Source of the DNA: Natronorubrum daqingense
GTDB lineage: Archaea > Halobacteriota > Halobacteria > Halobacteriales > Natrialbaceae
Assembly (NCBI RefSeq): GCF_001971705.1
Contig: NZ_CP019330.1
Coordinates: 1 to 54,993, forward strand
DNA: 54,993 nucleotides
Direction: 5' to 3'
A program made the position numbers and the translations under genes. The notes beneath the pieces were generated by a model, which did no database searches, was not told where the DNA came from, and worked only from the letters and a program-made list of their open reading frames with translations. Shown one piece after another: positions 4-46,216 of this stretch (positions are counted from its first letter, which is position 1; each line of letters starts with the position of its first letter).

Positions 4-1587
4 ATGTTTAGGAGAGAATTCATCAAAGCAGGCGCAGGAGCAACCGCACTCATCGCAACACCGGCGTTCGTCCCGGTACCGGCGCTCGGCAGCCACGACA
101 CCCTCACCGAGTTCGCACTCTCGGACCCCGAAATCGATCCGTACGGCGCGGATCACAACCCATCGTTCGTCGGCAGCTACGACGACGCTGACGACCGCGA
201 AGCGTTCGAGGCGTGGCTCGAGGATGATACCGATACCGGACGCATCGTCCGCGAGTACGACCATCTCGACCAGACCGCGTTCACGCTGTCGTGGTCCGAA
301 GCTGGCGTCTCACAACTGTGGGGTGGCCTCGAGCATCGATCGGGCGGCCTTGACGACCTGACCTACCTCGAGTTTGCAGACGCGAACGCCATCCTCGACC
401 ATCCAGAGCCGATCGAACCCGACGACCTCGTGAGCGAGTCGGCGTTCTCGCTCGAGACGGGCTGGCTCGAGCGCCAACTGCTCGCACTCGAGCTGGGCCA
501 ACTCGACGCCGAACCCGATATCGACGGCCTCGCCTTCGATGACGACGCACCCGAATCAACGCTCAGAGAGGCACGCCGACTCGTCGGCGCGGGCGATGGC
601 GTCCTCGAAGACACCAACCGCGGTGACGGCGTCACGGTCATCGTGATCGATACCGGTATCGAAGACCGCTCGATCTACGAAGACGAAAACGGCGATCGAC
701 GCATCCAACCGGAATCGACGGACTTCACGAGCGCGGGCGACCCGACGGTCGACGAGAACGGTATCGACACGGTCTCGGATGCCGACGGTCACGGCGATTG
801 GGTCTCGGCGTGCATCCTCGCGGATAACGACGATGACCGATACTCTGGATTCGCGCCCGAAGCCGACCTCGTGACGGCGAAAGCACTCGACGAAGATGGT
901 GGCGCGGTCGCGGATATCGTCGCGGGCGTCGACCTCGCTATCGACGTCGACGCAGACGTGATCTGCATGAGCCTCGGCAGCCCGCAATGGTCCGAAGCAC
1001 TCGCAGACGCGCTCGAGGACGCGTGGGATGCTGGCGCGTTCACGGTCGTCGCCTCTGGCAACGACCGCGTCGGAACGACGTTTACGGCTCATCCCGCCAG
1101 CGCCGAACATGGCCTTCCGGTCAACGCGACGAACGTCCCCGAAAGCGGCGACCGGGACGACACCCAAATCGCGAACTTCGGGAACGTTGGCCCGCATCCG
1201 GGTACGCAGGACTTCTCGAGTGGTGCCTCAGAAGGCGCGGGGCCGGAACTCGCAGCGCCGGGGATGCAGATCGAGATCGACCCCGTCGGGACGCTCACCG
1301 GAACGAGCATGGCCGCGCCGATGGTCGCCGGCGCGGCGGCGGTCCTCGCAGGCGAGGGGCACGATAACGAGGCCATCCACGACCGGCTACTCGAGTCGGC
1401 CTACCCCGTCGAACACTTCGGCGTCACGGAGTCCGAGTACGGCTTGCTCGATCTCGAGGCCGCACTCGAGGGCCGTGAACACGATGACGACCAGGCCGAC
1501 GTGCGCTCGGACAGTGCGCGCACGCGGGATGACTTCAACGAAGCGCTGTCGGTGAGTCGCGGGCGACTAATTTTGAGGCTGTTCTAA
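4..1587 (+). CDS. Tat-exported subtilisin-like serine protease (S8)
   Basis: This is a 527-residue secreted subtilase that should cleave peptides outside the cell. The N-terminus has a twin-arginine signal (RREFIK followed by a hydrophobic run to about residue 30). A propeptide-like region of about 170 residues follows. The catalytic set is visible: Asp216 in VIDTGIED, His263 in DGHGDWVSA, oxyanion Asn353 in ASGN and Ser435 in GTSMAAPMVAG. The His motif is a variant of the usual HGTHVAG. The start lies at the window edge, but the Tat signal makes ATG 4 convincing. The next gene starts 4 bases after the stop. A maturation role for nearby exported proteins is inference. Confidence 0.93.
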   Translation: MFRREFIKAGAGATALIATPAFVPVPALGSHDTLTEFALSDPEIDPYGADHNPSFVGSYDDADDREAFEAWLEDDTDTGRIVREYDHLDQTAFTLSWSEAGVSQLWGGLEHRSGGLDDLTYLEFADANAILDHPEPIEPDDLVSESAFSLETGWLERQLLALELGQLDAEPDIDGLAFDDDAPESTLREARRLVGAGDGVLEDTNRGDGVTVIVIDTGIEDRSIYEDENGDRRIQPESTDFTSAGDPTVDENGIDTVSDADGHGDWVSACILADNDDDRYSGFAPEADLVTAKALDEDGGAVADIVAGVDLAIDVDADVICMSLGSPQWSEALADALEDAWDAGAFTVVASGNDRVGTTFTAHPASAEHGLPVNATNVPESGDRDDTQIANFGNVGPHPGTQDFSSGASEGAGPELAAPGMQIEIDPVGTLTGTSMAAPMVAGAAAVLAGEGHDNEAIHDRLLESAYPVEHFGVTESEYGLLDLEAALEGREHDDDQADVRSDSARTRDDFNEALSVSRGRLILRLF

Positions 1588-1591
1588 GACC

Positions 1592-2458
1592 ATGGCTGGC
1601 TCAGTGACGCGTCGAGAGTACCTCCAGAGCACCGGGAGTGTCGCGTTTCTCGGCTGGGGGGCGTTCGATTCGGCGGATGACGCACTCGAGGACGAACCCG
1701 AACTCGAGTACGACGGCGACGCACCGGTCTTCCCCGACCATATTACGGAGACGCGAGACGATACAGACGAACTCGAGGAGTACGCGCCGAAACTCGTGAC
1801 GACGCCCGAAGCGCGCTCGGAAATGCGTGGCATGTACGGCTGGATCGCCGAAAGCGAGGAGTTCGACGTGACGGCGTACTACTACTGGACGCGCTACAAT
1901 ACCCAACGCAGTTCGCTGGCCTACGTCGGTCTCGATGTCGATGCGATTCGAGTGCCGTTCACTGACCGCGAACTGTTCGGCTTCGATTCGCACTACCTGG
2001 ACCACGAGCCCTATATCTCATTTGTGAACGACGACGGCACCGTCGAGCAAGCGGTCGCGACGGCAGGCCATCACTACGCGATGGAGCTCGATTCAGACTG
2101 GGGCAGTTTCACCGAAGACCGTGTGAGCGGGCGCGAGACGCACGCCAATCTGGCCGTCATCCGCCCGTGGAATCACTTCATGGATGCGCCGCGTGGCGAA
2201 CACGGCGATTTCGTGTTCAACTACGCGAGTTTCGGTAGCTGGCTCAACGAGTACGAGACGTGGTATCGAAACAATCGCTACGAGCGCACCGCCGATATCG
2301 CGGTCATGGACCCCTTCAGGTTCTACGATGACGGCGAGCAGGCCTACCGGGACCACTGGTGGGAGGCCGACGAGTTAGACGCACGCGTCGTGCGCGATAT
2401 CCGACTCCGGCGGATCACCGACCGCGACCAACTCCGGATCGAGGATTGGGACAGATGA
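1592..2458 (+). CDS. Tat-exported protein of unknown function
   Basis: This is a 288-residue protein with a Tat-type signal (TRREYLQSTG plus a short hydrophobic stretch). The mature part is rich in Asp, Glu, Tyr and Trp, with no domain I recognise. It follows the subtilase by 4 bases and is presumably co-transcribed. It probably works outside the membrane as a folded Tat substrate. No catalytic motif is evident. Confidence 0.8.
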   Translation: MAGSVTRREYLQSTGSVAFLGWGAFDSADDALEDEPELEYDGDAPVFPDHITETRDDTDELEEYAPKLVTTPEARSEMRGMYGWIAESEEFDVTAYYYWTRYNTQRSSLAYVGLDVDAIRVPFTDRELFGFDSHYLDHEPYISFVNDDGTVEQAVATAGHHYAMELDSDWGSFTEDRVSGRETHANLAVIRPWNHFMDAPRGEHGDFVFNYASFGSWLNEYETWYRNNRYERTADIAVMDPFRFYDDGEQAYRDHWWEADELDARVVRDIRLRRITDRDQLRIEDWDR

Positions 2459-2550
2459 CTGAGAACGCAAAACCACCGCCAGACCCACCGCCCGATCGAC
2501 CGCGCACAGCTACCGAACACTTAGCGATACAGACACACCATGCCACTTGA
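2455..2550 (+). CDS. possible 31-residue proline-rich peptide
   Basis: A 31-codon reading frame starts with an ATGA overlap on the stop of the upstream gene and ends 11 bases inside the next gene. It begins MTENAKPPPDPPPD. The overlap style matches genuine small genes elsewhere in this window, but the length gives no coding statistics. It may instead be a spurious frame in a short spacer. Confidence 0.3.
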   Translation: MTENAKPPPDPPPDRPRTATEHLAIQTHHAT

Positions 2551-3511
2551 AATCATACCGAATAGACAACTCAAAATCGACACACCCGACGGCGGAAGCG
2601 TCGTCTGGGGGGATGTCGACGGAGAGACGAGCATCCCTGGAACGTTCGGGCGAACGTCTTCGGGCGTGTTGCTCGGCCCACTCGAGATCGCCGTTCCAGA
2701 CGGCGAAACGCTCTGGATCGACGACCTCAGTTTCGAGGCCGAATACGACGGCGGCTGGTTTTCGCTAGGCCTCGTCGCCCCACTGGCGGCAGCCCCAATG
2801 GCTGACCGCGACGAGACTGAATCGAACCCGGTCAACCGACGCCACATTCTCACGCTACTGGCGGCAACCGTCGCTGCCGGTATGTTGTCGGTCAATGCGA
2901 GTGCTGACGAAGACGAAGACGAAGACGACGATGGTACAGTCGCCCTGTCGGTAGCCCGTCTCGAGATTGGCGATTCCGACCAACCGTTTTCGATTCGGAT
3001 CATCGACATCGTAGACGAAGTCTTGCCACCGACGACCGATGTCCTGGTTGATCAGGACGGTCGGCGGACCGGATCGGTCGGTGACAGCGACGAACGTGTT
3101 ACGATCGGTTCGGATGCCGAGACCGTTCGAATCTATCTCGAGGATAGCATCGGGCGGATATCGAAACTACTCGCGTGGGCACAGTCACACTTGCCCGGTG
3201 ACTCGAGTCTGACGTTCGAGCGCGAGTTGCCCGACGATGCCGATAGCTACGACGATGGCACAACAGTCGATCTGACCGATAACCCAGTACTCGTCAACTC
3301 AGTTGATGAGTCTGGCTACGATCGAACGACCCTCGAGATCGGCGAGACACAGATACCGAACGTCAGCGATGCGGACGCTGAAAGTACCACTGCTGGGGAG
3401 TGGGCACTCGAGGATGACACACTCGTCTATGGGGTTGGCGAGGACGCACCATCGGAGTCAGTGTGGACGCTCCGAACGCAACTCAGTTTCACACAAGCAC
3501 TCACAACATAA
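2540..3511 (+). CDS. protein with internal Tat-like signal, unknown function
   Basis: The frame runs 323 residues from ATG 2540. A Tat-like motif (NRRHILTLLAAT, then a hydrophobic run ending near NASA) sits about 100 residues in, preceded by an in-frame ATG at 2798. If 2798 is the true start, the product is an ordinary 237-residue Tat substrate. If 2540 is used, an 86-residue beta-rich segment precedes the signal, which would be unusual. After the signal come a DEDEDEDDD acidic stretch and a region with no recognised domain. Confidence 0.75.
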   Translation: MPLEIIPNRQLKIDTPDGGSVVWGDVDGETSIPGTFGRTSSGVLLGPLEIAVPDGETLWIDDLSFEAEYDGGWFSLGLVAPLAAAPMADRDETESNPVNRRHILTLLAATVAAGMLSVNASADEDEDEDDDGTVALSVARLEIGDSDQPFSIRIIDIVDEVLPPTTDVLVDQDGRRTGSVGDSDERVTIGSDAETVRIYLEDSIGRISKLLAWAQSHLPGDSSLTFERELPDDADSYDDGTTVDLTDNPVLVNSVDESGYDRTTLEIGETQIPNVSDADAESTTAGEWALEDDTLVYGVGEDAPSESVWTLRTQLSFTQALTT

Positions 3512-3513
3512 TC

Positions 3514-3759
3514 ATGACAGACGACACACTCGACCTAACGGTACTGGATGATGAGGGGGAAGAAGTTGACGATGCGGAAGTGACGGTGAATGGAGAAGAA
3601 GTCGGTGGGTCCGGAAGCGGTGGTCCACTCACTGAAAATGACGATGACGAACTCGAGCCAGAGGATGGACAGCCGATTCGGGCCTCGGGCGGATTGTACA
3701 TCCCCGAACTCGAGGAAGACCCAGATGACGGCAATCTATGGATACGGGGCGATCTGTAA
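3514..3759 (+). CDS. small acidic beta-rich protein
   Basis: This 81-residue protein starts at ATG 3514, just after the upstream stop; an upstream in-frame ATG at 3463 is inside the previous gene and is less likely. It opens with a segment reading like an Ig/carboxypeptidase-regulatory strand pattern (LTVLDDEGEEVDDAEVTV), then a Gly/Ser linker and an acidic tail. There is no signal peptide. Its stop shares one base with the next start (TAATG), so it is probably translationally coupled to the WD40 gene. Confidence 0.65.
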   Translation: MTDDTLDLTVLDDEGEEVDDAEVTVNGEEVGGSGSGGPLTENDDDELEPEDGQPIRASGGLYIPELEEDPDDGNLWIRGDL

Positions 3760-4880
3760 TGTCTGATTGGGAACTGCTTGAGTCCTTGGGCGAGTCGTCC
3801 GGTGACATCAATTCAGTCACGTTCTCCCCAGATGGTGAGTGGATCGCTTATACTGGGTCTGACAACGATGTCTACATCCACTCGATTGAGGACCTAGAAC
3901 ATGAAGAGACACTTAGAGAATCAGGTGGAACTGTCCATTCTGTCACGTTTTCCCCAGATGGTGAGTGGATCGCATACGGTGGGTCCAGAGACAATGTGTA
4001 TATCCATTCGACTGAGGACTGGGAATATGAAGAAACACTTACGGAAGCGAGTAATTCTGTCGAGTCCATATCCTTCTCACCAGATGGCGAGTGGATCGCT
4101 TACAGTGGTTCCAGTGGAGATGTAGACATTCATTCGACCGAGGATTGGGAATATGAAGAGACATTAACGGAGGATACTACCACTGTCAGCTCAGTCACAT
4201 TCTCACCAGATAGTGGGTGGATCGCCCATGGAGATTCTGATGATGAAGTCCACATCCATTCGACTGGGGACTGGGAACATGAAGAGACACTCACTGAAGC
4301 GAGCGGTAACATCCAGTCAGTCACTTTCTCACCAGAAGGAGAGTGGATTGCTTACGGGGGGTGGGTTTTTGACGGCGAAGTCTACATCCATTCGACTGAG
4401 GATTGGGCACATGAAGAGACACTCTCGGAAGCGAGTAACAGTATCGAATCTATTGCATTCTCCTCTGGTGATGAGTGGGTTGCTTATAACAGTGGTGACG
4501 AAGAAATACATATTCATTCGACAGAAGATTGGGAGTATGAGGCTACATTAACAGAATCAGGTGAAGATATTAACTCGGTTGAGTTCTCATCAGACGGGTA
4601 CCTAATTGCTTACGGCGGGGACGACGCGGAGGCACACATCCATACGACGCCTGAATTTGACGGCGACCCATACCCAATAGCTACTGCCAGTTACGAAACA
4701 AGTTATGGAACCACGTATGATATTCCACTCTACGACCCAGACGATATAGATGATTCATGGCTTCGCTTCCGCGTAGACGGTACTGTCTCGGTTGCAAAAC
4801 TCATCGATCCTGACAACGAACCACTTCGGGCCAGACAAGGTGCTGGCGAAGAAGTTCAGGGCGTTGAAACCGACACTTAA
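3759..4880 (+). CDS. seven-repeat WD40 beta-propeller protein
   Basis: This 373-residue protein carries seven tandem repeats of about 42 residues, each built on SVTFSPDGEWIAY, a turn, VYIHS, and EDWEYEETL. Seven repeats fit a closed seven-bladed WD40 propeller, a protein-interaction scaffold. There is no signal peptide or membrane segment, so it is probably cytosolic. A tail of about 80 residues after the last blade resembles a beta-sandwich. Start 3759 overlaps the upstream stop by one base; an upstream in-frame ATG at 3738 lies inside the previous gene. Base composition is visibly more AT-rich than in the flanks. Partner and function are unknown. Confidence 0.88.
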   Translation: MSDWELLESLGESSGDINSVTFSPDGEWIAYTGSDNDVYIHSIEDLEHEETLRESGGTVHSVTFSPDGEWIAYGGSRDNVYIHSTEDWEYEETLTEASNSVESISFSPDGEWIAYSGSSGDVDIHSTEDWEYEETLTEDTTTVSSVTFSPDSGWIAHGDSDDEVHIHSTGDWEHEETLTEASGNIQSVTFSPEGEWIAYGGWVFDGEVYIHSTEDWAHEETLSEASNSIESIAFSSGDEWVAYNSGDEEIHIHSTEDWEYEATLTESGEDINSVEFSSDGYLIAYGGDDAEAHIHTTPEFDGDPYPIATASYETSYGTTYDIPLYDPDDIDDSWLRFRVDGTVSVAKLIDPDNEPLRARQGAGEEVQGVETDT

Positions 4881-4898
4881 TCTAAAACGTATGATAAA

Positions 4899-5918
4899 AT
4901 GAAGGGGACTATTGATACCCAGAAAGTATGCAGAAGAACAGCTATGGCATCAATCGCGGGTTTTTTCGCGTCTATAGCCGGAAGTACGTTGTTCTCCTCA
5001 ACCGTGGGTGCAACAGACGATGGCCCTATTGAATTAGAAGTAGGTGCAACAATTCCTGATGGGTCCAATATCACACTCACCACCATCGACAAATCAGATG
5101 ATGAGGTGTCAAGCACGATCGACCTCAAGAATGGTGAACACACGTACGAAGTAGATGGCCTTGACCACTCGGACGAACCCGAGTATTACTGGCGTGCAGA
5201 GTATGAGACGGAAGGTGATAAGACACCATCACTTGAGCGCGTAGAGCTGATCACGCCAGACGACAGCGGACTCTTCTCGATACTCGATTTCGATTTTGAC
5301 TTCAGCTTTGACTTCGACTTTTGGCCGTTCAACGAAGCCGAGGGCGAAGTGCCACTTCTCTCCGGGTTTCGGCGCGGAACGAGCGGAGATGGCGATTCAG
5401 ATACCGTAAGATTCAGACAACGCGGTCATGTGGAATCATCGGCTAAAGAAAGCGGCGTCTGGAGTGAGTCTGAATTCGAAGAAGCTACGAAACGGGGCGT
5501 GGAGCTATCGGGCGGACGTCTGTCATTGATCGAGCTGGAACAGGGACGACCGACTGGGAAAACAGAGGTTAGCAGCCCCGAAGAGGCGCTCTCTCTCGAC
5601 ATCGAAGAACAGGAACAAGGGGATGCATCAAACCTCCATTTCGAATTCTCTGGGACCGATTCCACTGTTGACTCACACCCCGATCTTGATAGCGATATTG
5701 CTGGAATTGCGACCTACGATGGCGACCCTGTTTCAGACGCAAAATTCTACGTTGTGAACACAACAGAAGATACGTACGAAGAAACAGCATACAGCAATTC
5801 TGACGGTGAATTCTATATTGATGTTTCCGACTCAGATGCAGAATACGCCGTTTTTGGCGAAGTAGAAATCGACGGTGAAACGCAGACCAGCATGGCACAG
5901 GCGTCAGTGCTGATCTGA
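4899..5918 (+). CDS. exported protein with C-terminal carboxypeptidase-regulatory-like domain
   Basis: This 339-residue protein has a probable Tat signal (CRRTAMA followed by a hydrophobic run to VGATDD). Around residues 128-140 there is a low-complexity stretch of alternating Asp and Phe. The last 75 residues (IAGIATYDGDPVSDAKFYV to the end) look like a carboxypeptidase-regulatory/Ig-like beta-sandwich. The same fold pattern closes the downstream subtilase, so the two neighbours may share an attachment or partner domain. The gene is in the AT-richer 3.5-7.5 kb island. Confidence 0.75.
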   Translation: MKGTIDTQKVCRRTAMASIAGFFASIAGSTLFSSTVGATDDGPIELEVGATIPDGSNITLTTIDKSDDEVSSTIDLKNGEHTYEVDGLDHSDEPEYYWRAEYETEGDKTPSLERVELITPDDSGLFSILDFDFDFSFDFDFWPFNEAEGEVPLLSGFRRGTSGDGDSDTVRFRQRGHVESSAKESGVWSESEFEEATKRGVELSGGRLSLIELEQGRPTGKTEVSSPEEALSLDIEEQEQGDASNLHFEFSGTDSTVDSHPDLDSDIAGIATYDGDPVSDAKFYVVNTTEDTYEETAYSNSDGEFYIDVSDSDAEYAVFGEVEIDGETQTSMAQASVLI

Positions 5919-5948
5919 GATAACGATCTCATAAACTGAGCAATCATC

Positions 5949-7511
5949 ATGGTGAGCTACAGCCCAACCCTATTGGAAGAGCACGGCGAGAAACGAGCGA
6001 TAATTAACTTCGACCGGCCGGATGAGTACTACGGTCCGTGTGAGACGAGATCTGAGAAAATTGCCGAGTTGAAAGAGTGTTGTAACTCTACTCATGCCCC
6101 ACTCAAGGACTTTATCTCGAGCACTGCCGGTATCGAACTTCTGAGCGATCACTGGGCCGGATCAACTGCAACAGTACGGATCGACTTTAACACGTTCGAT
6201 GTAGACGATCTCGAGGACGTTGATTACGTCAAGAGTGTTGTGGTCGACGATGGAACACTCAAAATCAATTCCGACGATGGTGCTGATACTTATCTCCCAG
6301 GAGACGTTGATTGGTCGCTTGAACAAACGCAAGTCCATGAGTTTTGGACTGAATATGGGGCCCGTGGTGAAAATGTGAAGGTAGCAGTGACTGATACGGG
6401 AATCGATCCCGACCACGAAGCACTTGAGTTGTATACTGATGATCCTGATGATGAGACGTACCCTGGCGGATGGGCCGAATTCGACCTTGACGGAAATGAA
6501 ATCGAAGACAGCGAACCGTGGTACGATTTTTGGCACGGAATCGAAGTCTCGGGTCCAATAAAGGGAAAACCTCCAGAATCAGCGGACGAGGAGTACATGG
6601 GAGTCGCCCCTGAGTGCGATTTGATGATGGTGAAGATGAACGACCCCGATGAAACTGACACGACGACCCATTCGGCTATGATTGCGGCACTCGAGTGGTG
6701 CCTCGAAAATGGCGCAGATATCATAAATAGCAGCTGGGGGAATTACGCAAGACAATCCCCACCGTATGAATTAGACCTCTATTATGACATTTTCCAAGAC
6801 GCATTGGATATGAACTGCATCTCGGTTGGGTCCTCCGGGAACACGGACGAAGGGGGTGAAATAGGGCCGGCACCTGGGTCATACTACAATGCCATCAGCG
6901 TAGGCGGAGTCGAAGAGTCGGGCGAGATGTACGGCAGTTCTACGGGCCGAACAATTGAAGAATCCGATTGGGATGAATACCCTGATGAATGGCCAGATGA
7001 GTATATCATACCAGATATTACGGCCGGGGGTCGAAACGTCCCGACCACAACGGAAGACGATGAATATGGAACGGCATCCGGAACATCGTTCGCCGCCCCG
7101 ATCGTCACTGGCCACATCGCACTGCTCTTGTCCTACTCACGCACGCAAACAGAGTCGGATGCAGATATCAATGACATCATTTCCGCACTGAAAGGAACGG
7201 CGTGGAAGCCCGATGACTGGAGTGATGATGACTTTGAGGACGGATCCGAAGAAGCAGGCGAACACGACACTCGATATGGTTGTGGCATTGCCAAAGTGTT
7301 GGATGCGCAGGAAAAACTCCGAGATATGAGGTCTATCACGGGAGAGGTTATATTCAATTCAATACCGACTAACGATGCGAAAGTATATGTAATCGATCGC
7401 AACTCGAATGATCTTGCTGGCGTTTTGGAGCCTTCAGAGGGCGAATTCAGGTACGAGGGTGGCTCCAGCGACGACTCCTACCACATCGGCGTGGTGGCTG
7501 ACGATGATTAA
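5949..7511 (+). CDS. subtilisin-like serine protease without signal peptide
   Basis: This 520-residue S8 protease has Asp149 in VTDTGID, His196 in FWHGIEVSG, Asn298 in GSSGN and Ser380 in SGTSFAAPIVTG. The first 110 residues resemble an inhibitor-I9 propeptide, but no Sec or Tat signal precedes it and no better start is visible upstream. It may act in the cytosol or reach the outside with a Tat-exported neighbour. The last 60 residues (ITGEVIFNS onward) match the C-terminal domain of the gene before it. The His motif is atypical (usually HGTHVAG). Confidence 0.88.
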   Translation: MVSYSPTLLEEHGEKRAIINFDRPDEYYGPCETRSEKIAELKECCNSTHAPLKDFISSTAGIELLSDHWAGSTATVRIDFNTFDVDDLEDVDYVKSVVVDDGTLKINSDDGADTYLPGDVDWSLEQTQVHEFWTEYGARGENVKVAVTDTGIDPDHEALELYTDDPDDETYPGGWAEFDLDGNEIEDSEPWYDFWHGIEVSGPIKGKPPESADEEYMGVAPECDLMMVKMNDPDETDTTTHSAMIAALEWCLENGADIINSSWGNYARQSPPYELDLYYDIFQDALDMNCISVGSSGNTDEGGEIGPAPGSYYNAISVGGVEESGEMYGSSTGRTIEESDWDEYPDEWPDEYIIPDITAGGRNVPTTTEDDEYGTASGTSFAAPIVTGHIALLLSYSRTQTESDADINDIISALKGTAWKPDDWSDDDFEDGSEEAGEHDTRYGCGIAKVLDAQEKLRDMRSITGEVIFNSIPTNDAKVYVIDRNSNDLAGVLEPSEGEFRYEGGSSDDSYHIGVVADDD

Positions 7512-37931: not shown

Positions 37932-38590
37932 TTGGACCCCTCCGGTTCAGTTTCCGTGTCGAGTGAACAGTCGAGTGAGCAGTATGGCCCATCGTTGAAC
38001 CCGAACACGTCTTTGACTGGAACCGACTCTCCATCCTCAACGTCGTCGAATGCCCCAGCCACCAACCCGCTGTTGGCGTAAAATGGGTTGTTTCCAACCG
38101 CATCTCCGCATTCGATGCACTGCTCAGTATCGCTCGAGGATGTGCCGCCATCAGTTCGAATCTGGCGATCGTCGTCAGAGTCAGTATTCGCGTTCTCCGA
38201 TCGTTTGTCTTTTATTTCAGTTTCGCACGCTGCACAGACTGAAAACTCACGTACTTCGCCTCTTATAATTTCTTCCACCGTTTTTGTCGCCTCTTCTTGC
38301 TCGCACATGATACAGTTGTGTGGCATGTCGAGTTCAGTCTCATCCGTGGAAGTTCCGCCATCAGTTCGGATTTCGCGTTCGTCGTCGTAGTCAGTATCCG
38401 GGACGCGTTCCCGGATCACCGATATCGACTCTGCCAATTCCTCGTTGGATTCGAACACGCCATGTTTGAGAATATTCGCCCGGATTTTCCCGTCAGTCAT
38501 ATCCCTATTTAAGTGCTGTTCGGGCACCTGAACCGTCGATATTACGTTGACTCCGATACTCCGACTCTGGCCAGTATCGTCTGGAGACAT
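37928..38590 (-). CDS. multi-zinc acidic protein with repeated IRTDGG linker
   Basis: The 220-residue product has Cys pairs CIMCEQEE, CAACE, CIECGDA and CSLDCSLD. Two linkers read DDEREIRTDGGTS and DDDRQIRTDGGTSS, dividing it into zinc modules. ATG 38590 overlaps the upstream stop by one base (a GTG at 38593 is alternative). Function is unknown; modular assembly is evident. Confidence 0.62.
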   Translation of the reverse strand: MSPDDTGQSRSIGVNVISTVQVPEQHLNRDMTDGKIRANILKHGVFESNEELAESISVIRERVPDTDYDDEREIRTDGGTSTDETELDMPHNCIMCEQEEATKTVEEIIRGEVREFSVCAACETEIKDKRSENANTDSDDDRQIRTDGGTSSSDTEQCIECGDAVGNNPFYANSGLVAGAFDDVEDGESVPVKDVFGFNDGPYCSLDCSLDTETEPEGSK

Positions 38591-38830
38591 CACGAACCGC
38601 CCCCGTTCTGGTGTTTTCCTGTCTGTAGTGAACGGACCAATTCCTCGAGTTCGTCGTCAGTAAGGATACCCTCAAGAGCATCCGCGAGTAGCTCTTTATC
38701 TCCCCCTCCATCTTCCAGCGCGAGTGGAGCGAACGTCCGCGGAGTGTCCGCTGCAAGGTATATCCCGCGATCAATTCCATCTGTGGAAGCTCCGCCATCA
38801 GTTCGAATCTCGCGTTCGTCCTCGAGTTCG
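38141..38830. repeat. three in-frame repeats encoding the IRTDGG linker
   Basis: The minus strand carries three near-copies of about 50 bp at 38141-38190, 38347-38397 and 38781-38830, all containing CCGCCATCAGTTCG on the + strand. All are in the same reading frame direction and join protein modules. Confidence 0.65.
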
Positions 38831-38910
38831 TCCACGACATCCTGCGGCGCGTAGCGCTCTGCCGCTCTGTAGGCGCGCTCGTGGAGTTCGTCGCGCGTTC
38901 GGGGCATCAT
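38590..38910 (-). CDS. helical protein with IRTDGG linker, 106 residues
   Basis: An N-terminal helix (RDELHERAYRAAERYAPQD) leads to DEREIRTDGGASTDG, then a helical segment (TDDELEELVRSLQTG). The same linker appears twice in the next gene. ATG 38910 overlaps the upstream stop. Confidence 0.55.
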   Translation of the reverse strand: MMPRTRDELHERAYRAAERYAPQDVVDELEDEREIRTDGGASTDGIDRGIYLAADTPRTFAPLALEDGGGDKELLADALEGILTDDELEELVRSLQTGKHQNGGGS

Positions 38911-39509
38911 TTCTCACCCCGCGTTGCCGCTGCCCGTGGCGCGTTTTTCTCGAGGCTCTCGTTCGAGACGGTCTCGGTCTCGAGTCCGAGTCGGGACTGT
39001 ATCTCGCCGATCGAGAGCATCGTCTCCATGCTCTCGTTATCTTCGGCGTCGAACGCGCGCATCACGTAGGGTTGTGGCGCGTTGGGCGTCGTCGGCCAGA
39101 CGTACTCACTCGAGTCGTTGCGGTCGACGACCAGGACTTCACCGACTTCGAGGCCTTTCGTCTCCGGGTGGAGTTCGTCGGGTTCGGATTCGGGTTCGGG
39201 TTCGGTCACGATCTCGCCGCCGTCGGTCGCCGGGATCGGTTGTTCTTCAGGTTCGGGTTGGCCCGTGAGCTCGCGTTCGCGAGCTGCGAGGTGTTCGAGG
39301 ACCTCCGTTTTCGAGGAGCCCGAGAGAATCTGTTTCGTCACTGCGCGGTAGGCCTCGAGTAGTTCGGGGTCGCGAATGCCGGCGATTCGCGCTTTCGCGA
39401 GTTGTTTTCCCGACTGGAGGAATCTGGACGGGTCCTCGCCGTGTTCGGCTTTGATCTTCGGGAACTCGTGGCGATCGCCGACGTCGGGATTGTAGCCCGA
39501 TCGGGTCAT
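38907..39509 (-). CDS. hypothetical protein, 200 residues
   Basis: A helical first domain (FPKIKAEHGEDPSRFLQSGK to EHLAARERELTG) is joined by a PIPATDGGEIV linker to an acidic region and a second small domain. Four-base overlaps tie it into the operon. Function is unknown. Confidence 0.55.
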   Translation of the reverse strand: MTRSGYNPDVGDRHEFPKIKAEHGEDPSRFLQSGKQLAKARIAGIRDPELLEAYRAVTKQILSGSSKTEVLEHLAARERELTGQPEPEEQPIPATDGGEIVTEPEPESEPDELHPETKGLEVGEVLVVDRNDSSEYVWPTTPNAPQPYVMRAFDAEDNESMETMLSIGEIQSRLGLETETVSNESLEKNAPRAAATRGEK

Positions 39510-39664
39510 GGGCGGGTCGCCTCCTCGAGTGTTAGGAGTGAGTTGTACTCGCGGTCGTACGTTGGTTGGGCGGTGAGTGAGAGACCGCGTGGTGGTTGTG
39601 AACGATTCTCCGCTTCCGATTCGTTCCGACTAGATTTAAGTCGGTTTGTCTGTAACTGTCGCAT
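39506..39664 (-). CDS. micro-protein, 52 residues
   Basis: A 52-residue frame MRQLQTNRLKSSRNESEAEN ends with an ATGA overlap on the next gene. It covers the AT-rich leader repeat, so it may instead be a leader segment. Low confidence. Confidence 0.35.
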   Translation of the reverse strand: MRQLQTNRLKSSRNESEAENRSQPPRGLSLTAQPTYDREYNSLLTLEEATRP

Positions 39665-39747
39665 GGTTCGTTATTCACTTCCCAGTGGAACACGGACCAC
39701 GCGCGTCATGCCCAAACATGACGTTTTCGCGAGATGGACTATCTCGG
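39626..39747. repeat. leader repeat A (upstream of the 34.5-39.7 kb operon)
   Basis: Contains CCGACTAGATTTAAGTCGG (39626-39644, a near-palindrome), ATTCACTTCCCAGTGGA (39673-39689), a hairpin with CCCAAA loop (39704-39723) and ACTATCTCGG (39738-39747). The same blocks occur in order at 44017-44165. Confidence 0.6.
39704..39723. promoter_or_regulatory. CCCAAA-loop hairpin 1
   Basis: CGTCATG and CATGACG form a perfect 7-bp stem around the loop CCCAAA. Confidence 0.5.
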
Positions 39748-39805
39748 TAGCGTGGCGTTCGTGCTAATTGGTACATTGAACTGGATATACTTAGGTTTTG
39801 CCCTC

Positions 39806-39842
39806 GGTGCAACTGCACATCGGCCCACAGTGCAGTTGCACC
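39806..39842. promoter_or_regulatory. perfect 13-bp inverted-repeat operator
   Basis: GGTGCAACTGCAC (39806-39818) and GTGCAGTTGCACC (39830-39842) are exact inverse copies with an 11-bp spacer. TTTATATT at 39847-39854 immediately follows as a TATA box, so a bound dimer should block the 39877 gene's promoter. Confidence 0.65.
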
Positions 39843-39876
39843 ACCCTTTATATTCCCCGCACCCGTATCTACCTCC

Positions 39877-40107
39877 ATGTCACCAGAGCGCCGACGGGAT
39901 CAGGACAGCGGCCGGTACGGGTCCGAGTATTCTTCAAATCAATACCTCGAGGCCGTTCGGCGGCTCGAACCAACGACGACAGGCGAAGTGGCAGAGGAAC
40001 TCGAGTGTCACAGGAATACTGCCCGTCGAAATCTCGAAAAACTCGCGGAACGGGGTGAACTTGAGCAGTCGAAACGAAGCGGAGCGTTCCTCTGGCAGAC
40101 GATTTGA
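39877..40107 (+). CDS. winged-helix regulator, likely autorepressor
   Basis: This 76-residue protein has the helix-turn-helix TTTGEVAEELECHRNTARRN and a wing GELEQSKRSGAFLW. It sits just after the perfect inverted repeat and TATA box, which is the usual layout for autorepression. It may also control nearby repH. Confidence 0.75.
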   Translation: MSPERRRDQDSGRYGSEYSSNQYLEAVRRLEPTTTGEVAEELECHRNTARRNLEKLAERGELEQSKRSGAFLWQTI

Positions 40108-40167
40108 GTTTACTTTCAGTCCGGTAGGGCAGCGTTTATACTTCTGTCTGTTGTAGGACCTATCACA

Positions 40168-40629
40168 ATGAGTGCCGAATCAGAACCCTCGAGTGAGTCC
40201 GTTATCCGGCAGGATATCGATCGGGTGCAAGACGATGTGTCAGCACTCAGTGATTCATCCGACAACGAGCAGGTGGTCGAGTTGCTATCGGCAATTGAGG
40301 ATTTTATCATCGAGTTCAAGCGATTGGATGCAGAGAAGCGCAAGCTCGAGGCGCGGGTCGACGACCTCGATCGGCGTGTCCCGGCGGGTGGGATCAAAGC
40401 CGACAGTAGTGCCGGTGGCACGAACCCACGAGACCAGGCTGTCCTCGATGCGCTCGAAGACCGTGGCCGATGTAAGATTCAGGTTCCAGAACTCAAGCAA
40501 CTGTACCGTCGGCACACCGATATCAAAAACAAACGTACGCTCGATGACCGCGTTCGTCACCTGACCGTCGACGGGCCGTTCGAGTTCGTCAGTCCTGGCC
40601 TCTGGGAATATATCCCCGGTTCGAATTAG
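40168..40629 (+). CDS. coiled-coil protein with C-terminal winged helix
   Basis: Residues 30-75 form a coiled coil (FIIEFKRLDAEKRKLEARVD). After a Gly/Ser linker, the C-terminus has a winged-helix pattern (DQAVLDALEDRGRCKIQVPE). A TATA-like TTTATAC lies at 40134. It converges with repH; the stops overlap by 3 bases. A role in replication control or partition is inference. Confidence 0.62.
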   Translation: MSAESEPSSESVIRQDIDRVQDDVSALSDSSDNEQVVELLSAIEDFIIEFKRLDAEKRKLEARVDDLDRRVPAGGIKADSSAGGTNPRDQAVLDALEDRGRCKIQVPELKQLYRRHTDIKNKRTLDDRVRHLTVDGPFEFVSPGLWEYIPGSN

Positions 40630-43600
40630 TCTGCGGCCGCTTCTGTAATCGCCTGTTGTCGCACCGCTGGACCCATCGAGACGAGTTTTTCCGGTTTCTC
40701 CCCAGGTTGTTCACCCAGTAATCGGAGCGCTATCGAGATCCACGATTCGAACTCATCAATCTCGAGCAGTTGTCGTGGGTTCTGTGGCCAATAGAGTGTG
40801 CTGCCCGCTGGGTCATCCGGATCGGCGTACCGATCGGGTGGCAACATCGTCTCGAGTAGGCCGTCTGCCGCATCGATCAACAGACCGTCGGCAGTCGTCA
40901 ACGCCGGGATAACAGGATCGTTCCGTTCCTGTCGTGTTGGGAACGAGAGACTGAGTCGCCACCCCGAACTGCTGTGTGAGACCAACGAGAGGGACTGGAG
41001 TCGTTCAGCGTGATTGCGAACGGTTCGGGCCGTTACGTCGGCCAGTTCTGCAAGGCGTTTCTGTGAGAGTGAATCGTCGGCCGCGAGTAAAACGGATAGG
41101 AGTTTGCCGACCGACCGTGGGAGCTCGGGGACGAACGCGTCAGCGTCCACACCACGGAGTGCGACACGAAGTTCATCCGGCCGGAGTTGTCGCGAATCGT
41201 CTTCTGGCTCGAGACGGCGTTGTAGGGCATCGGCGATATCGTGTGGCGTCGCGACCAGTGCATTGAGGATCGATACGGCGCGATCCGTTACGCCGATGTT
41301 TTTGGGTGCGAGGATTCGTGTCGCCATCCGTCCGAAATCAGCGCGTTTCGGGTCGCGAACACGGATATCGATCGAAAACGCTGGCGCATCGTCGAGTGTC
41401 TCTCGAGGCGTTTCGAGGAAGTGTTCGAGGTCGTCACGGAACCGATGGACGTCGGGGCCACGAATCACGAACGAGCCGATGAGGTCGCCAGTCGGGGTTT
41501 CGGCGTCGATCGAGGCGGCAACCGGCGGTTTGTCGCAGTCTGGGACATCAAACAGTTGTCGGTACGGTGCGAATTTTCGGTATTCGGACTGGATAGCCGC
41601 CGAGATACCGATCGACTTCGCGAGTGGTCGAAGCTGTTTCTCGATATTCCGACCGCCAGGAACGCGAATCTCGCGAACGAGGTCGATGCCGACAGTCTCG
41701 AGAAGATGGGCGATCGAGCCGGCAAGCCCGTGTGCCGATCGGATGATCGATCCCCGGAACCGGTCGCGGTCCTGGTAGTCCTCATTTCGGAGTGCGGTCG
41801 TCATATCCTGAACGTCACGGCCCCACTCGACGAGATTGTCGCGAAGCTGTTGGGCGTCCGAGGCAGCATGCGCCGACAGACCACCGATATTCCGAACGTC
41901 GCGGAGTAGTGACGGCGGTTCCGTGATATCCTCGAGCCGGTCAACTGGCAGGGCTCGGTCTATAAATTCCTCACTCGCTAATGCGGCTGCAAGCGTCGTC
42001 GTGTATGGTAGCGGTTCGGCGGCCTGTATGGCCACAACCGCTTCGTCGCGTTCATCGTCGTAACTCACCAGCCGTACTTTCCCATCTAACCCGTTTTCGT
42101 GTTCTACGTCGCCTCGCACCACCGTCACAGCCCCGTTGCGGGCGCATGCCGCGGCGGCGTGGTGCGTGCTGGGGCTGGCGTAGTCCGTTCGGTACGGGCG
42201 GCCGGCCTGCGGTTGGTCGGCCTGGCCGTCCTCCCCACCCACTCCCTCCTGCGGGGTTACACGGCACTTGTTATACGAATTTCCGGAAAAAAATTCCAGA
42301 TCGCTGATGTTTGACTGGCGTCCTGCGTCAGCGTTGATCTGCTCGAGAACGAGTTGGCCAGCAGCCTGTAGCGCAACCATCTGGCCGCCATCGGGACCGT
42401 AGACTGAGACCAATCCAAGGGCGGTCAACGAATCGGAACCGTTCCGGAGCAACTGCGAAATCCGGGCAGTAGTCACATCATGTTCAGCTTCAATATCGGC
42501 ACGTGCGAGTACTTGATCGGGTTGTGCTGCCAGTTGGCGAAGGATTCGAACCTTCCGACCGTCCGGATCGAGAACGCGGCGTGCGGCGCTCGCAGTGTCT
42601 TCGATTTGTTCGCTCGCACGGTCTTGATTGCACCATTCGCTAAACCCATCGAGGTCCGATCGGTGGCGATCGGCGACCTTCTGGAGGGTGTTCGGTGATC
42701 CGACGAGTTGCAGATCCAATCCGGCGGCAAGCACACTCAGTAGGTCGCAGATATCGACACGCTGGTCACGTCGCACCTGTTTCGGGTCGACGAACGGCTC
42801 GCGAACGACGACGGCGACTGTCGGGTCCTCCTCGAGCGCGCCGAACAAACTGGCAACAGTCAACAAATCCTCTGTTGCAGCAAGTGGGTTTGCGGAAAGC
42901 GTCGGTGTGAGCTCAGTGACGAGCTGCCAAATCGATCGCGTCTGGCCGTTGACTGCGGCGGCGATCGGGGTCCGAAGCCAGAACGGGACGCCCATCTCTT
43001 GAAGTTCGTCGTAACACTCGTTCGCGTCAAGGTTCCCGAACCGGCTTCCAATCGCGTCTGCAAGCGTCTGTTGCAGCCCGGTTGATTGGAACAGATCGTT
43101 CCAGAACTCTGTGACAGTCGTCGAACCGAGTTCGACTGTTGTGACTGACGAGACAGGCTGTGTCTCAGTGACCGTAATCGATCCGCGTGCGTGTGCGTCA
43201 CGATCAGCGCGCTCACTCCACCCATCAAGTGCATCGTCGACGTACTCCTGGCAAATCTCGTGCTCTGGGTTCTCGAGTGAAATCTCGTCTTCGAAGGCGC
43301 TGACACCGATGCCGCTGTACTCGTCTGCCCATTCCTCGAATTTCCGCCGGCCCGGCTCGAGGACGGTCTTCGCGAGCGTGTCGTAGCGGTCGGACTCGAT
43401 GGGCGTGAGGTCCATCTTGTCGGCGTCCAGCGTGAACGAATCGATCTGCTGTTCGACCTCCGCGTGTTGCTCTGCGTACTGGCCACGATCTTCGATAAAC
43501 CGTTCGTAGATGTCGGATTCGTCGGCTTCGCCAGCCTCGATACGCGACCGAAGCTCGGCCGCACGGGCCTTGGTTTCTTGCGAGCCGCGAATCTTGACGA

Positions 43601-43721
43601 GGTTTGTGGCGCGTTCGGAACCGCAGTGTGGGCACGAAACTGTGTCGTGTGCCTGCCAGCCTGATTCCTGAAGCCAGGTATTCTCACAGGTTTTGCAGGG
43701 GAGGATGTCGAACCCGCTCAT
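40626..43721 (-). CDS. repH: large RepH-like replication protein
   Basis: This 1031-residue protein fits the size and gene-plus-structured-upstream-region layout of the RepH family of haloarchaeal plasmids (pNRC100, pHH1 type). An N-terminal zinc ribbon has Cys9, Cys12, Cys30 and Cys33. Two winged-helix-like segments are visible (VLARADIEAEHDVTTARISQ; SLSQKRLAELADVTARTVRN). No polymerase or helicase motif is visible. ATG 43721 is chosen because residues before it do not look like the family (frame open to 43829). Assignment is from recollection of family size, not a search; a large regulator is the alternative. Confidence 0.55.
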   Translation of the reverse strand: MSGFDILPCKTCENTWLQESGWQAHDTVSCPHCGSERATNLVKIRGSQETKARAAELRSRIEAGEADESDIYERFIEDRGQYAEQHAEVEQQIDSFTLDADKMDLTPIESDRYDTLAKTVLEPGRRKFEEWADEYSGIGVSAFEDEISLENPEHEICQEYVDDALDGWSERADRDAHARGSITVTETQPVSSVTTVELGSTTVTEFWNDLFQSTGLQQTLADAIGSRFGNLDANECYDELQEMGVPFWLRTPIAAAVNGQTRSIWQLVTELTPTLSANPLAATEDLLTVASLFGALEEDPTVAVVVREPFVDPKQVRRDQRVDICDLLSVLAAGLDLQLVGSPNTLQKVADRHRSDLDGFSEWCNQDRASEQIEDTASAARRVLDPDGRKVRILRQLAAQPDQVLARADIEAEHDVTTARISQLLRNGSDSLTALGLVSVYGPDGGQMVALQAAGQLVLEQINADAGRQSNISDLEFFSGNSYNKCRVTPQEGVGGEDGQADQPQAGRPYRTDYASPSTHHAAAACARNGAVTVVRGDVEHENGLDGKVRLVSYDDERDEAVVAIQAAEPLPYTTTLAAALASEEFIDRALPVDRLEDITEPPSLLRDVRNIGGLSAHAASDAQQLRDNLVEWGRDVQDMTTALRNEDYQDRDRFRGSIIRSAHGLAGSIAHLLETVGIDLVREIRVPGGRNIEKQLRPLAKSIGISAAIQSEYRKFAPYRQLFDVPDCDKPPVAASIDAETPTGDLIGSFVIRGPDVHRFRDDLEHFLETPRETLDDAPAFSIDIRVRDPKRADFGRMATRILAPKNIGVTDRAVSILNALVATPHDIADALQRRLEPEDDSRQLRPDELRVALRGVDADAFVPELPRSVGKLLSVLLAADDSLSQKRLAELADVTARTVRNHAERLQSLSLVSHSSSGWRLSLSFPTRQERNDPVIPALTTADGLLIDAADGLLETMLPPDRYADPDDPAGSTLYWPQNPRQLLEIDEFESWISIALRLLGEQPGEKPEKLVSMGPAVRQQAITEAAAD

Positions 43722-43901
43722 TTGAAAATCACCATGCTGGCGGCTGGCTGTGTATGGAAAACGGCACTCTCTTCGGTGGGTGTGGGCTCGTAGCTCATGT
43801 ATTGGAAACCTCGATAACAGAGCGCACACTCACCACTCGTCGACCGGGCGCGAACTCGGAAATTCGAGTCTCGCCAGTCGTCGTGGGGGAAAGCTTAAGA
43901 C

Positions 43902-43953
43902 CAAAGCCCGCCAAAACCAGAGTGATTGAGTGGTTCTGGCGTGGCGGGCTTTG
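43902..43953. repeat. long inverted repeat near repH
   Basis: CAAAGCCCGCCA (43902-43913) and TGGCGGGCTTTG (43942-43953) are perfect 12-bp arms, with further partial pairing (AACCA/TGGTT) inside. Could be an origin hairpin, a terminator, or a leader structure. Confidence 0.55.
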
Positions 43954-44016
43954 CCCCAGCGCCCTGCGGTAAATTTTCCTTAGCTGTGCATATCCGAAAC
44001 GAACGAACGCGCCCGT

Positions 44017-44165
44017 CTTAAATCTAGTCGGACTGTCTGACGTTATATTCATTCACTTCCCAGTGGATTGTGTTGGCTAACTCACAGCCAACGGCTGCCC
44101 AAACAGCCGTCTTCAGTTCACTCTCTCGCTGCCCAAACAACGAGGAGTGGCCGATACTATCTCGG
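44017..44165. repeat. leader repeat B (upstream of repH)
   Basis: Contains CTTAAATCTAGTCGGA, ATTCACTTCCCAGTGGA (44051-44067, identical 17 bases), two CCCAAA-loop hairpins (44091-44110 and 44125-44144) and ACTATCTCGG (44156-44165). It matches repeat A block by block but carries an extra hairpin. Confidence 0.6.
44072..44144. promoter_or_regulatory. cluster of three hairpins, two with CCCAAA loop
   Basis: GTTGGCT/AGCCAAC with 7-nt loop (44072-44092), ACGGCTG/CAGCCGT around CCCAAA (44091-44110) and CTCGCTG/CAACGAG around CCCAAA with one mismatch (44125-44144). Confidence 0.55.
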
Positions 44166-44169
44166 ACCA

Positions 44170-44481
44170 TCAGCGCATGGACACCTCGCGGATCTCCAAC
44201 TCAGCGCAGACGGCCCGAATCCAGCCGGGGACGCGCTCGGGTTTCCCGACCTGGTCACCGCCAACAGCGTAGACGGCCGTCAGTTCGGCGACGTCGCCTG
44301 CCCCTTCGACAGTCCATCGAGTCTCGCGACGCGTGAACTCGAGCTCGTAACTCGAGCGGTCGCCGGCCACGGCGAGGTCGCAGGTCGTCCCCGGTGGGAC
44401 GTCCGCGACGATCTCACCGAGGTCGACCGTCGTGTGTTCGCGTGCCGAGTGTCCGATCGTGTGTGTTTGCGTGAGTGCCAT
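44170..44481 (-). CDS. acidic beta-rich protein, 103 residues
   Basis: Starts MALTQTHTIGHSAREHTTVD at ATG 44481 (frame open to 44664) and is strand-rich (CDLAVAGDRSSYELEFTRRE, ELTAVYAVGG). Function is unknown. It ends 4 bases from the leader repeat. Confidence 0.5.
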   Translation of the reverse strand: MALTQTHTIGHSAREHTTVDLGEIVADVPPGTTCDLAVAGDRSSYELEFTRRETRWTVEGAGDVAELTAVYAVGGDQVGKPERVPGWIRAVCAELEIREVSMR

Positions 44482-44875
44482 GGTATCTGATACGGCTTCG
44501 GGGGGCTTAACGAGGGGAGGGTCGCTTCCACCCGTTCCACCCTCTGCCGTCTTGCGATTTCGATCTTCCACCCTGACAGAGCAGGCGCGAACCAGTCGGG
44601 AAACCTGACGTTGCGCGCAGCGCAACTGTTGTAGGTCCGGCATAGTTTTGGGGTCGCGCGTCATCTGCCATGGTAGGGTATCAGCGTTATCAGCCCATTG
44701 GGCGGCGTGTTTGTGGCACGTCCGTCCGATTGATTTTCACGAACGGGTAGCCCGGCCAATGTCTCAATTTCGCTGATAGTCACACCATTATGCCACTGCT
44801 ACTTAAGCTTTGACTACGGAACCCGTATCATACGATACGACTATTGGTATTGAAAAATTACAACCACACAAGATT
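44482..44875. other. intergenic region with a hairpin
   Basis: No gene is evident. GTTGCGC-GCA-GCGCAAC (44610-44626) is a perfect 7-bp hairpin. The short repeats TATCAGCG/TATCAGCC occur near 44690. The AT-rich TACTTAAGC before 44810 may be a promoter for 44876. Confidence 0.4.
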
Positions 44876-45172
44876 ATGAATCATTCAGCCGACGGTGGCG
44901 ACGACGGAATGCACAGAGATGTCGACTGGTTGAGGCCGTCAGACCGGCCAATTGTGAGAAAAATCGCAGATTATAATGGTGATTGGGTGAAAGCACCAAC
45001 TCTTGCGTTAAACCTACCATATACACGCCGACACATCTCTAACCGATGCCGAGAGTTAACAGATAACGGACTCCTCGAGCGACATTCTGATGCCGCGGCG
45101 TACCGAATTACGGAGAAAGGATGCGAGTTCCTTGCTGACAATCTTGAACCAGAGGACCTCAAGGACGACTAA
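44876..45172 (+). CDS. winged-helix regulator, 98 residues
   Basis: RPSDRPIVRKIADYNGDWVK, then LALNLPYTRRHISNRCRELT and a wing SDAAAYRITEKGCEF form a clear wHTH. The frame is open from TTG 44810; ATG 44876 follows an A-rich region and gives a normal start. Probably a local regulator. It converges with the Orc1/Cdc6 gene. Confidence 0.65.
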   Translation: MNHSADGGDDGMHRDVDWLRPSDRPIVRKIADYNGDWVKAPTLALNLPYTRRHISNRCRELTDNGLLERHSDAAAYRITEKGCEFLADNLEPEDLKDD

Positions 45173-45175
45173 ACT

Positions 45176-46216
45176 CTATCCTCGTGCCACAACTCCCAAC
45201 TCCTCGAGCACGACCTCGCGAACACTGTACCGGGGCTCGTGCTCTGGCCCCTCCACGTCCACCAACTCGTAGTTCTTGAATTTCGGCAGCCACCCCCGAA
45301 GCGTCCGCTTTCGAACAGCCGACTCCGAACACTCAGCGTAGGCGTGGAACATCTCTCCACTGGTCGCGGGCGCGATCTCGGCGAGCGCCTCGAGTGAGAC
45401 GCGTTGCTCTCTCGAGAGTGCCGATAACCGCGACCGGATGATATCCCGAGTGGCATCGGACTTCGATCGATCAATCAGCGCACGCGTAACTCGGTCTCTG
45501 CCTCCCCGATCGGCCGCGCGAACGCTATGATACAAGTGGGCAATCGCGACTCGAGCATCATTCTCGGCGAGTCGCGCGATGTACTCCAACTCCGAGCCCA
45601 TGACCACACCGGGCTCGACGCCGACGCTCACCCGTTTCTCGAGAATCGAGACGAGCTCCGTATCGGAATACGCAGAAAACGGTATCTCCTCGAGCGCCCG
45701 AATACGCGAATCGAGACGCGGGTGGGACTCGACCTCTCGCAAATCGAACTCGCGCCAGGACTCGTTCGAAATCAACACGAGCGTCAGGTCCGGGATGCCG
45801 TACAGTTCGTGGAGCACACGCAACTCGTCGATCTGGTCGGCTTCATCGAGAACGACGACGGTCGGCTTTTCGATGGCCTGCCGGACGAGTGAGGAGAGGT
45901 CGTCGGTCGCGATCGAGCGCCGCTCGAGTGTCGCGCCCTCTCCCAACCCTTCGAGGACGCGATTCAGAACTGAGCGGCGCGAGTGCGACCCCAGACAATC
46001 GAGATAGACGACGCGCTCGAGCTCGGAACAGACAGAGCGGACGGCACACGTTTTGCCCGCTCCCGGTGGCCCGTGGACGAACGCACCGTTGGGGGCGACG
46101 CCGTGGGTGATCGGCTCGAGAACGGAGGTTAGATGATCGATTTGGCCGTCCCGTTGCATAATAATCTCTCTGTCGGGCTGGACGTCGGTTTGGAGGACGG
46201 CGTAATCGGTAATCAT
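45176..46216 (-). CDS. Orc1/Cdc6-type replication initiator (AAA+)
   Basis: This 346-residue ATPase has Walker A GPPGAGKTC (49-57) and Walker B VVVLDEADQ (120-128), then a region reading LVLISN like a sensor, followed by a winged-helix domain (LSREQRVSLEALAEIAPATS). These match haloarchaeal Orc1/Cdc6. ATG 46216 is chosen; the frame extends to 46246. Its closeness to ORB-like sequences (46381) supports an origin role, in addition to the repH locus. Confidence 0.82.
   Translation of the reverse strand: MITDYAVLQTDVQPDREIIMQRDGQIDHLTSVLEPITHGVAPNGAFVHGPPGAGKTCAVRSVCSELERVVYLDCLGSHSRRSVLNRVLEGLGEGATLERRSIATDDLSSLVRQAIEKPTVVVLDEADQIDELRVLHELYGIPDLTLVLISNESWREFDLREVESHPRLDSRIRALEEIPFSAYSDTELVSILEKRVSVGVEPGVVMGSELEYIARLAENDARVAIAHLYHSVRAADRGGRDRVTRALIDRSKSDATRDIIRSRLSALSREQRVSLEALAEIAPATSGEMFHAYAECSESAVRKRTLRGWLPKFKNYELVDVEGPEHEPRYSVREVVLEELGVVARG

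Follow-up and report, generated by a model that had tools for sequence, protein, structure and literature searches.

The window analyzed here, the entire 54,993-base contig C4 of the genome of the haloarchaeon Natronorubrum daqingense and thus a plasmid of approximately 55 kb, carries three hairpins that share the loop CCCAAA. These hairpins belong to two larger structured sites, A and B, located 4.3 kb apart and flanking a gene for a RepH-like replication protein, each site combining a palindrome (X), a block of 17 nt (Y, ATTCACTTCCCAGTGGA, the same at A and B in the window) and a hairpin (Z), of which site A has one and site B two, Z1 and Z2. At site A, three copies of a short sequence (c3, c2, and c1) are arranged around the hairpin, followed by a small open reading frame (A-ORF). 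The features are as follows.

39704..39723, minus strand: hairpin Z of site A, a 7-bp stem with the loop CCCAAA on the plus strand (UUUGGG in minus-strand mRNA), with compensatory changes
39673..39689, minus strand: block Y of site A, adjoining the A-ORF start codon, identical to that of site B
39626..39644, minus strand: palindrome X of site A, within the start of A-ORF
39750..39763, minus strand: c3, the switch-sequence copy on the 5' side, close to the putative mRNA start
39691..39702, minus strand: c2, the middle copy, pairing with c3 or c1
39662..39670, minus strand: c1, the copy containing the A-ORF ATG, in which GAACCATG is invariant in 11/11 group 1 sequences (plasmid groups are described below)
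39783..39802, minus strand: promoter-like sequence, the presumed promoter of the A mRNA, alike in relatives by eye
39506..39664, minus strand: A-ORF, 52 amino acids, the first gene past the leader, its start annotated in relatives
43885..43902, plus strand: promoter-like sequence, presumed to direct a plus-strand RNA across site B, kept in 11/12 B sites
44013..44031, plus strand: palindrome X of site B, its core in the orientation opposite to that at site A
44051..44067, plus strand: block Y of site B
44072..44092, plus strand: helix P of site B, GTTGGCT/AGCCAAC
44091..44110, plus strand: hairpin Z1 of site B, loop CCCAAA
44125..44144, plus strand: hairpin Z2 of site B, loop CCCAAA, with a single C.A mismatch
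40626..43829, minus strand: RepH-like replication protein between the sites (phrog_17376), likely ATG at 43721

The abundance of these hairpins is far above chance, confirming the initial observation. The sequence TGCCCAAACA is found at 39709, 44096, and 44130, always on the plus strand, with no further copy in the window, against a mean of 0.03 expected from 100 shuffles, none of which reached three; CCCAAA by itself is not enriched (13 observed, 12.4 expected). A perfect stem of at least 7 bp around a given loop has a probability of approximately 7e-5 from base composition, so that 0.0009 such stems are expected among the 13 CCCAAA occurrences. The earlier note on this DNA had proposed three stems, CGTCATG, ACGGCTG, and CTCGCTG, each with its complement, and two of these, at 39704-39723 and 44091-44110, are indeed perfect over 7 bp, while the third, at 44125-44144, reads CTCGCTG/CAACGAG and contains a single C.A mismatch on the plus strand, equivalent to G.U on the minus strand. 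In the whole genome five copies of TGCCCAAACA are present, and the two outside the window possess no stem past the TG/CA pairs. A scan of positions 38400-45600 of the window against Rfam returned one sub-threshold match, away from the hairpins, and no match was returned for five related loci.

The same layout is encountered on plasmids of Natrinema, Haloterrigena, and others. With covariance models applied to 391 haloarchaeal genomes, at E-values up to 0.001, site A is recognized in 21 and site B in 9, the weak site A matches including other plasmid types and the leaders of RPA genes described below. In plasmids of group 1 the loops on the plus strand are CCCAAA, CCCTAA, or CCCTAC. In group 2, a gene for a protein of approximately 391 amino acids replaces RepH between the sites (6/7 records or genomes searched), and the loops are TCCCAC, CCTCAA, TTCCAG, TGGCAG, TGCCAC, or CCCATAA. 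The loop described in the earlier note as invariant is the same in all three hairpins of the window but differs between plasmids. In the window and in the pHTUR05 and DC36 plasmids, X lies 81-85 bases from the loop; Z1 and Z2 are spaced by 34 in the window, as in four relatives, and more widely in others. The stem sequences vary by site and by plasmid, yet they stay paired. Across the Z, c2:c1, and X helices of 11 group 1 A sites, 88.4% of the cells are paired and 13 cells are changed on both sides, and these both-side changes, compensatory in Z and X, were equalled in 0/500 shuffles.

The two sites are matched within each plasmid, in block Y and mostly also in the loop. Twenty A sites were compared, and 15 of them, those whose replicon also carries a B site, entered the matching test (G083, G108C62, G111, G064, and G054, with no same-replicon B site entry, stayed outside). 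In all 15 replicons the Y regions of A and B are identical over 12-19 nt, and these sequences are mostly private to each plasmid. When B sites were permuted among plasmids, the total of Y matching was reached by 0 of 200,000 permutations, also within groups, and the loop agreement by 25 of 200,000; the 15 replicons are not independent, pHTUR05 and G024 as well as Ntherm and Npall being close relatives and the window and Nejin having the same Y, and the permutations ignore such kinship. The loops agree on one strand, and hence are complementary between opposite strands, exactly in 13/15 replicons, or in 14 if G042 is corrected, which has a 7-nt loop, was off register in the comparison, and shows agreement of its two loop segments over 9 nt. 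Around the loop, the shared segment measures 10 nt in 12/15 plasmids, the other three having 9, 8, and 6 nt, and this accounts for the TG/CA closing pairs noticed earlier. Single bases of Y have changed at A and B together. One example is the second plasmid of the same genome (G000:C3, L082), which possesses the same system with a different loop and block; between A and B sites compared across this plasmid and the window plasmid, only TCCCAG is common in Y. That selection acts on pairing plus loop, as had been suggested, is thus supported both by the compensatory changes and by loops changing in step at separate sites, the latter also disfavouring a linear protein site. Allowing up to 3 mismatches, the window contains no third copy of Y, and the rest of the genome contains one match, with 2 mismatches; a separate small RNA gene was rejected as the source of a partner, as no other good copy of Y is available. 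Pairing of the loop with Y within one molecule was also considered, and it fails for Hrar, G066, and G064/G077, as judged by eye. By calculated duplex energies, cognate partners are preferred in each of the two opposite-strand combinations and not in same-strand ones, a result that restates the identity of the segments and ignores internal folding.

Site A is the 5' leader of a gene on the minus strand by its structure and position, its transcript being predicted from the sequence. Read on the minus strand, an ATG located 39-63 nt past the loop opens a small ORF in 16/16 A sites examined, and these starts match annotated genes in 4/6 named records viewed. A-ORF has a coding codon pattern, the values by position past the first 20 columns being 0.351/0.266/0.439, like those of two control genes. 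Palindrome X was considered as a promoter; at site A it is located inside A-ORF, and the orientation of its core at A is opposite to that at B. Of the three copies of the short sequence, c3 is positioned near the putative mRNA start, c2 past Z, and c1 with the start codon. Pairing is possible in 89.9% of the cells for c3:c2 and in 85.2% for c2:c1, and the two helices are mutually exclusive, the second one pairing the start codon. Neither helix shows both-side changes inside group 1, so that in this group it is pairing itself that speaks for them; in group 2 the copies are GCTTCG/CGAAGC in place of GGTTCG/CGAACC, a concerted change. The U-turn motif YUNR is present in the A loop in 11/15 cases.

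At site B, a minus-strand ATG is also found past the structure, in 9/9 sites examined, and the ORF that it opens carries no codon signal (0.233/0.265/0.239 in group 1 and 0.392/0.386/0.394 overall). On the strand opposite to this ORF, GGGGAAAG is retained in 11/12 B sites, with CTTAAG, CTATAAG, or TATTAAG after it, a combination that we infer to be the promoter of a plus-strand RNA running into Y, Z1, and Z2.

A hairpin of a related kind is found outside the plasmid sites. The pattern CGCGATG-T(A/T)NGGG-CATCGCG occurs in 19/391 haloarchaeal genomes, against none for the reversed pattern, and a gene for an SSB/RPA-like OB-fold protein follows it in 17 of these 19. The leader (L133-L151, 19 haloarchaeal genomes) is conserved and has three hairpins; the stem of the last one is variable and in most cases ends at the start codon. 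The leader produced no Rfam match as far as scanned. In common with the plasmid sites it has a hairpin with the loop U(A/U)NGGG, 38-50 nt before the start codon; it differs in that the stem is fixed by the search pattern and that a paired second site is missing in 2/4 genomes checked. As to further copies of its 10-mer, one in G407 belongs to a further leader of this type, whose perfect stem is shorter, and G407 and G010 each contain one more copy that is not a hairpin.

These observations are best brought together in the following scheme. Site A would function as the 5' leader of a minus-strand mRNA carrying A-ORF and the left operon, in which pairing of c2 with the upstream c3 would leave the start codon free and pairing of c2 with c1 would cover it. 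Site B would produce a plus-strand noncoding RNA, divergent from rep, whose hairpin loops would pair with the A loop over 6-10 nt and whose block Y would pair with its complement beside the A start codon over 12-19 nt, with repression as the presumed outcome. That such an RNA acts in trans on the A mRNA through the loops and block Y, with the loop and block serving as a replicon-specific code, we regard, from the sequence comparisons, as a nearly even proposition. Pairing of the plus-strand B RNA with the A mRNA would require just what is seen, namely joint change of the same 6-10 and 12-19 nt at the separate sites as the stems diverge: the stems may drift, and loop and Y stay identical within a plasmid, because only the paired segments must match. 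A change of both loop and Y would create a new private code, akin to an incompatibility group, and translation of the left operon may be tied to copy number because the B RNA would rise with it.

A number of observations weigh against this scheme. Loop agreement is incomplete in G043 and G016, where the last base of one or both B loops is not that of the A loop, and a stretch of 17 nt is common to the A site of G077 and the B site of G066. The promoter-like sequence at site B only partly matches the published haloarchaeal motifs, as these are given as TTWT and CGAAA (PMC4983044), and no terminator was found for the putative site B RNA. The imperfect pairs in the B hairpins (C.A on the plus strand in 13 cases and G.U on the plus strand in 3) favour the minus strand, many of the cases sharing descent. 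The second site for the 10-mer of the RPA leader is absent in 2/4 genomes checked (G334 and G082, leader only), and therefore such a hairpin can work without this kind of partner.

This last observation would fit a reading in which a plasmid-encoded RNA-binding protein recognizes the loop plus Y in both RNAs, the A leader and a B RNA acting as a second target or sponge, and coordinates the two, with coevolution resulting in one code per plasmid, since the RPA-leader hairpins, of the same loop type, have no visible RNA partner in those two genomes. Candidates for such a protein are the 106-amino-acid product encoded beside B and the small winged-helix protein encoded beside A, whose genes accompany the sites in both plasmid groups and both diverge fast. 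Nevertheless, single-base changes in step over 12-19 nt are long and exact for a protein site, and the model of the 106-amino-acid protein does not clearly match any RNA-binding fold known so far, although a weak match proves little; we consider this main rival unlikely. The minus-strand ATG past the B structure and the wobble pairs favouring that strand would also suit a site B that is a leader or intercistronic element of a minus-strand mRNA reaching into rep, in which case A and B would be copies of one cis-element recognized on the same strand by a common factor. With no codon signal in the ORF starting from the B ATG, this appears distinctly improbable.

It is even harder to credit that the sites act as DNA, as hairpins or cruciforms that Rep or a different protein binds and that serve in replication, partition, or site-specific recombination. 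They do flank a replication gene, and recombination sites would likewise be expected to combine an identical core with variable arms; however, a conserved start codon with alternative helices over it and the presence of block Y as a further matched element separate from the hairpin are not accounted for, and the gene between the sites differs by group. The suggestion in the earlier note of a binding site for a Rep or single-stranded DNA-binding protein finds no support for similar reasons, as versions with other loops flank the unrelated gene of approximately 391 amino acids and site A is an mRNA leader beside a conserved start codon. An RNA partner or an RNA-binding protein fits the sites better.

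The two small genes are positioned next to the sites.

44170..44487, minus strand: 106-amino-acid protein gene adjoining site B, found in both plasmid groups
39877..40107, plus strand: small winged-helix protein gene adjoining site A, found in both plasmid groups

A perfect 13-bp inverted repeat, GGTGCAACTGCAC/GTGCAGTTGCACC, at 39806-39842, 5' of the winged-helix gene, is perhaps an operator, and a long hairpin is present at 43903-43952, between rep and site B, relatives having one with another sequence (by eye). The RepH-like protein, of 1067 amino acids, matches phrog_17376 over residues 216-1066 (E 1.5e-99) and in a Pfam scan shows matches of helix-turn-helix and zinc-ribbon type, with no HUH family, the type of Rep that would go with a rolling-circle origin hairpin; one scan of viral contigs with this protein detected no relative. 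The plasmid shares the RepH-like protein with haloarchaeal replicons of the RepH type (phrog_17376) and is distinguished from them by an N-terminal extension of approximately 215 residues, outside the phrog match, and by the two matched sites. A published table lists pHTUR05 as having neither orc/cdc6 nor rep genes (PMC3528665); the current annotation of its record (L006) includes a Cdc6/Cdc18 family protein, and the plasmid also has a RepH-like homologue. Elsewhere in the window, positions 4-7511 encode two S8 subtilases and a WD40-repeat protein.

Complementary hairpin loops plus a second complementary stretch, with a loop identity private to the plasmid, are also characteristic of CopA/CopT of plasmid R1 and RNAI/RNAII of ColE1. 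In those systems the two RNAs originate from opposite strands of the same DNA. Here, in contrast, the two loci are separate, at a distance of 4.3 kb, and match only in loop and Y, the putative target is the A-ORF mRNA and not the rep mRNA itself, although rep may be affected as well, and the host is an archaeon. For antisense RNA copy control, changes in the loop are reported to create new incompatibility groups (PMC4485353). Another example is RNAII of pMV158, described as an antisense RNA that blocks translation by pairing in a single-stranded stretch and a loop (PMC4485353). A translation block with this manner of pairing is likewise what we propose here, whereas RNAII of pMV158 fully overlaps its target, the repB mRNA, and is bacterial. 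A literature search of limited depth, which is no proof of absence, yielded no report of antisense control for haloarchaeal plasmids.

Overall, the data may point to a family of archaeal plasmids in which a trans-acting RNA pairs, through its loops and a stretch of 12-19 nt, with a bistable mRNA leader located elsewhere on the plasmid, and in which a changing code of loop and block would define compatibility groups, including those of two plasmids residing in one cell; we put this forward with some reserve, as we do a part of the pairing in copy control or incompatibility. A genome-wide study of Haloferax describes structured leaders as not typical of haloarchaeal translation control (PMC4983044), and the recurrence in many plasmids of a conserved, switch-like leader with a plasmid-specific partner contrasts with that conclusion. 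RNA-based compatibility of archaeal plasmids thereby becomes directly testable by swapping a few bases and, if true, it would represent a new kind of plasmid self-control in Archaea.
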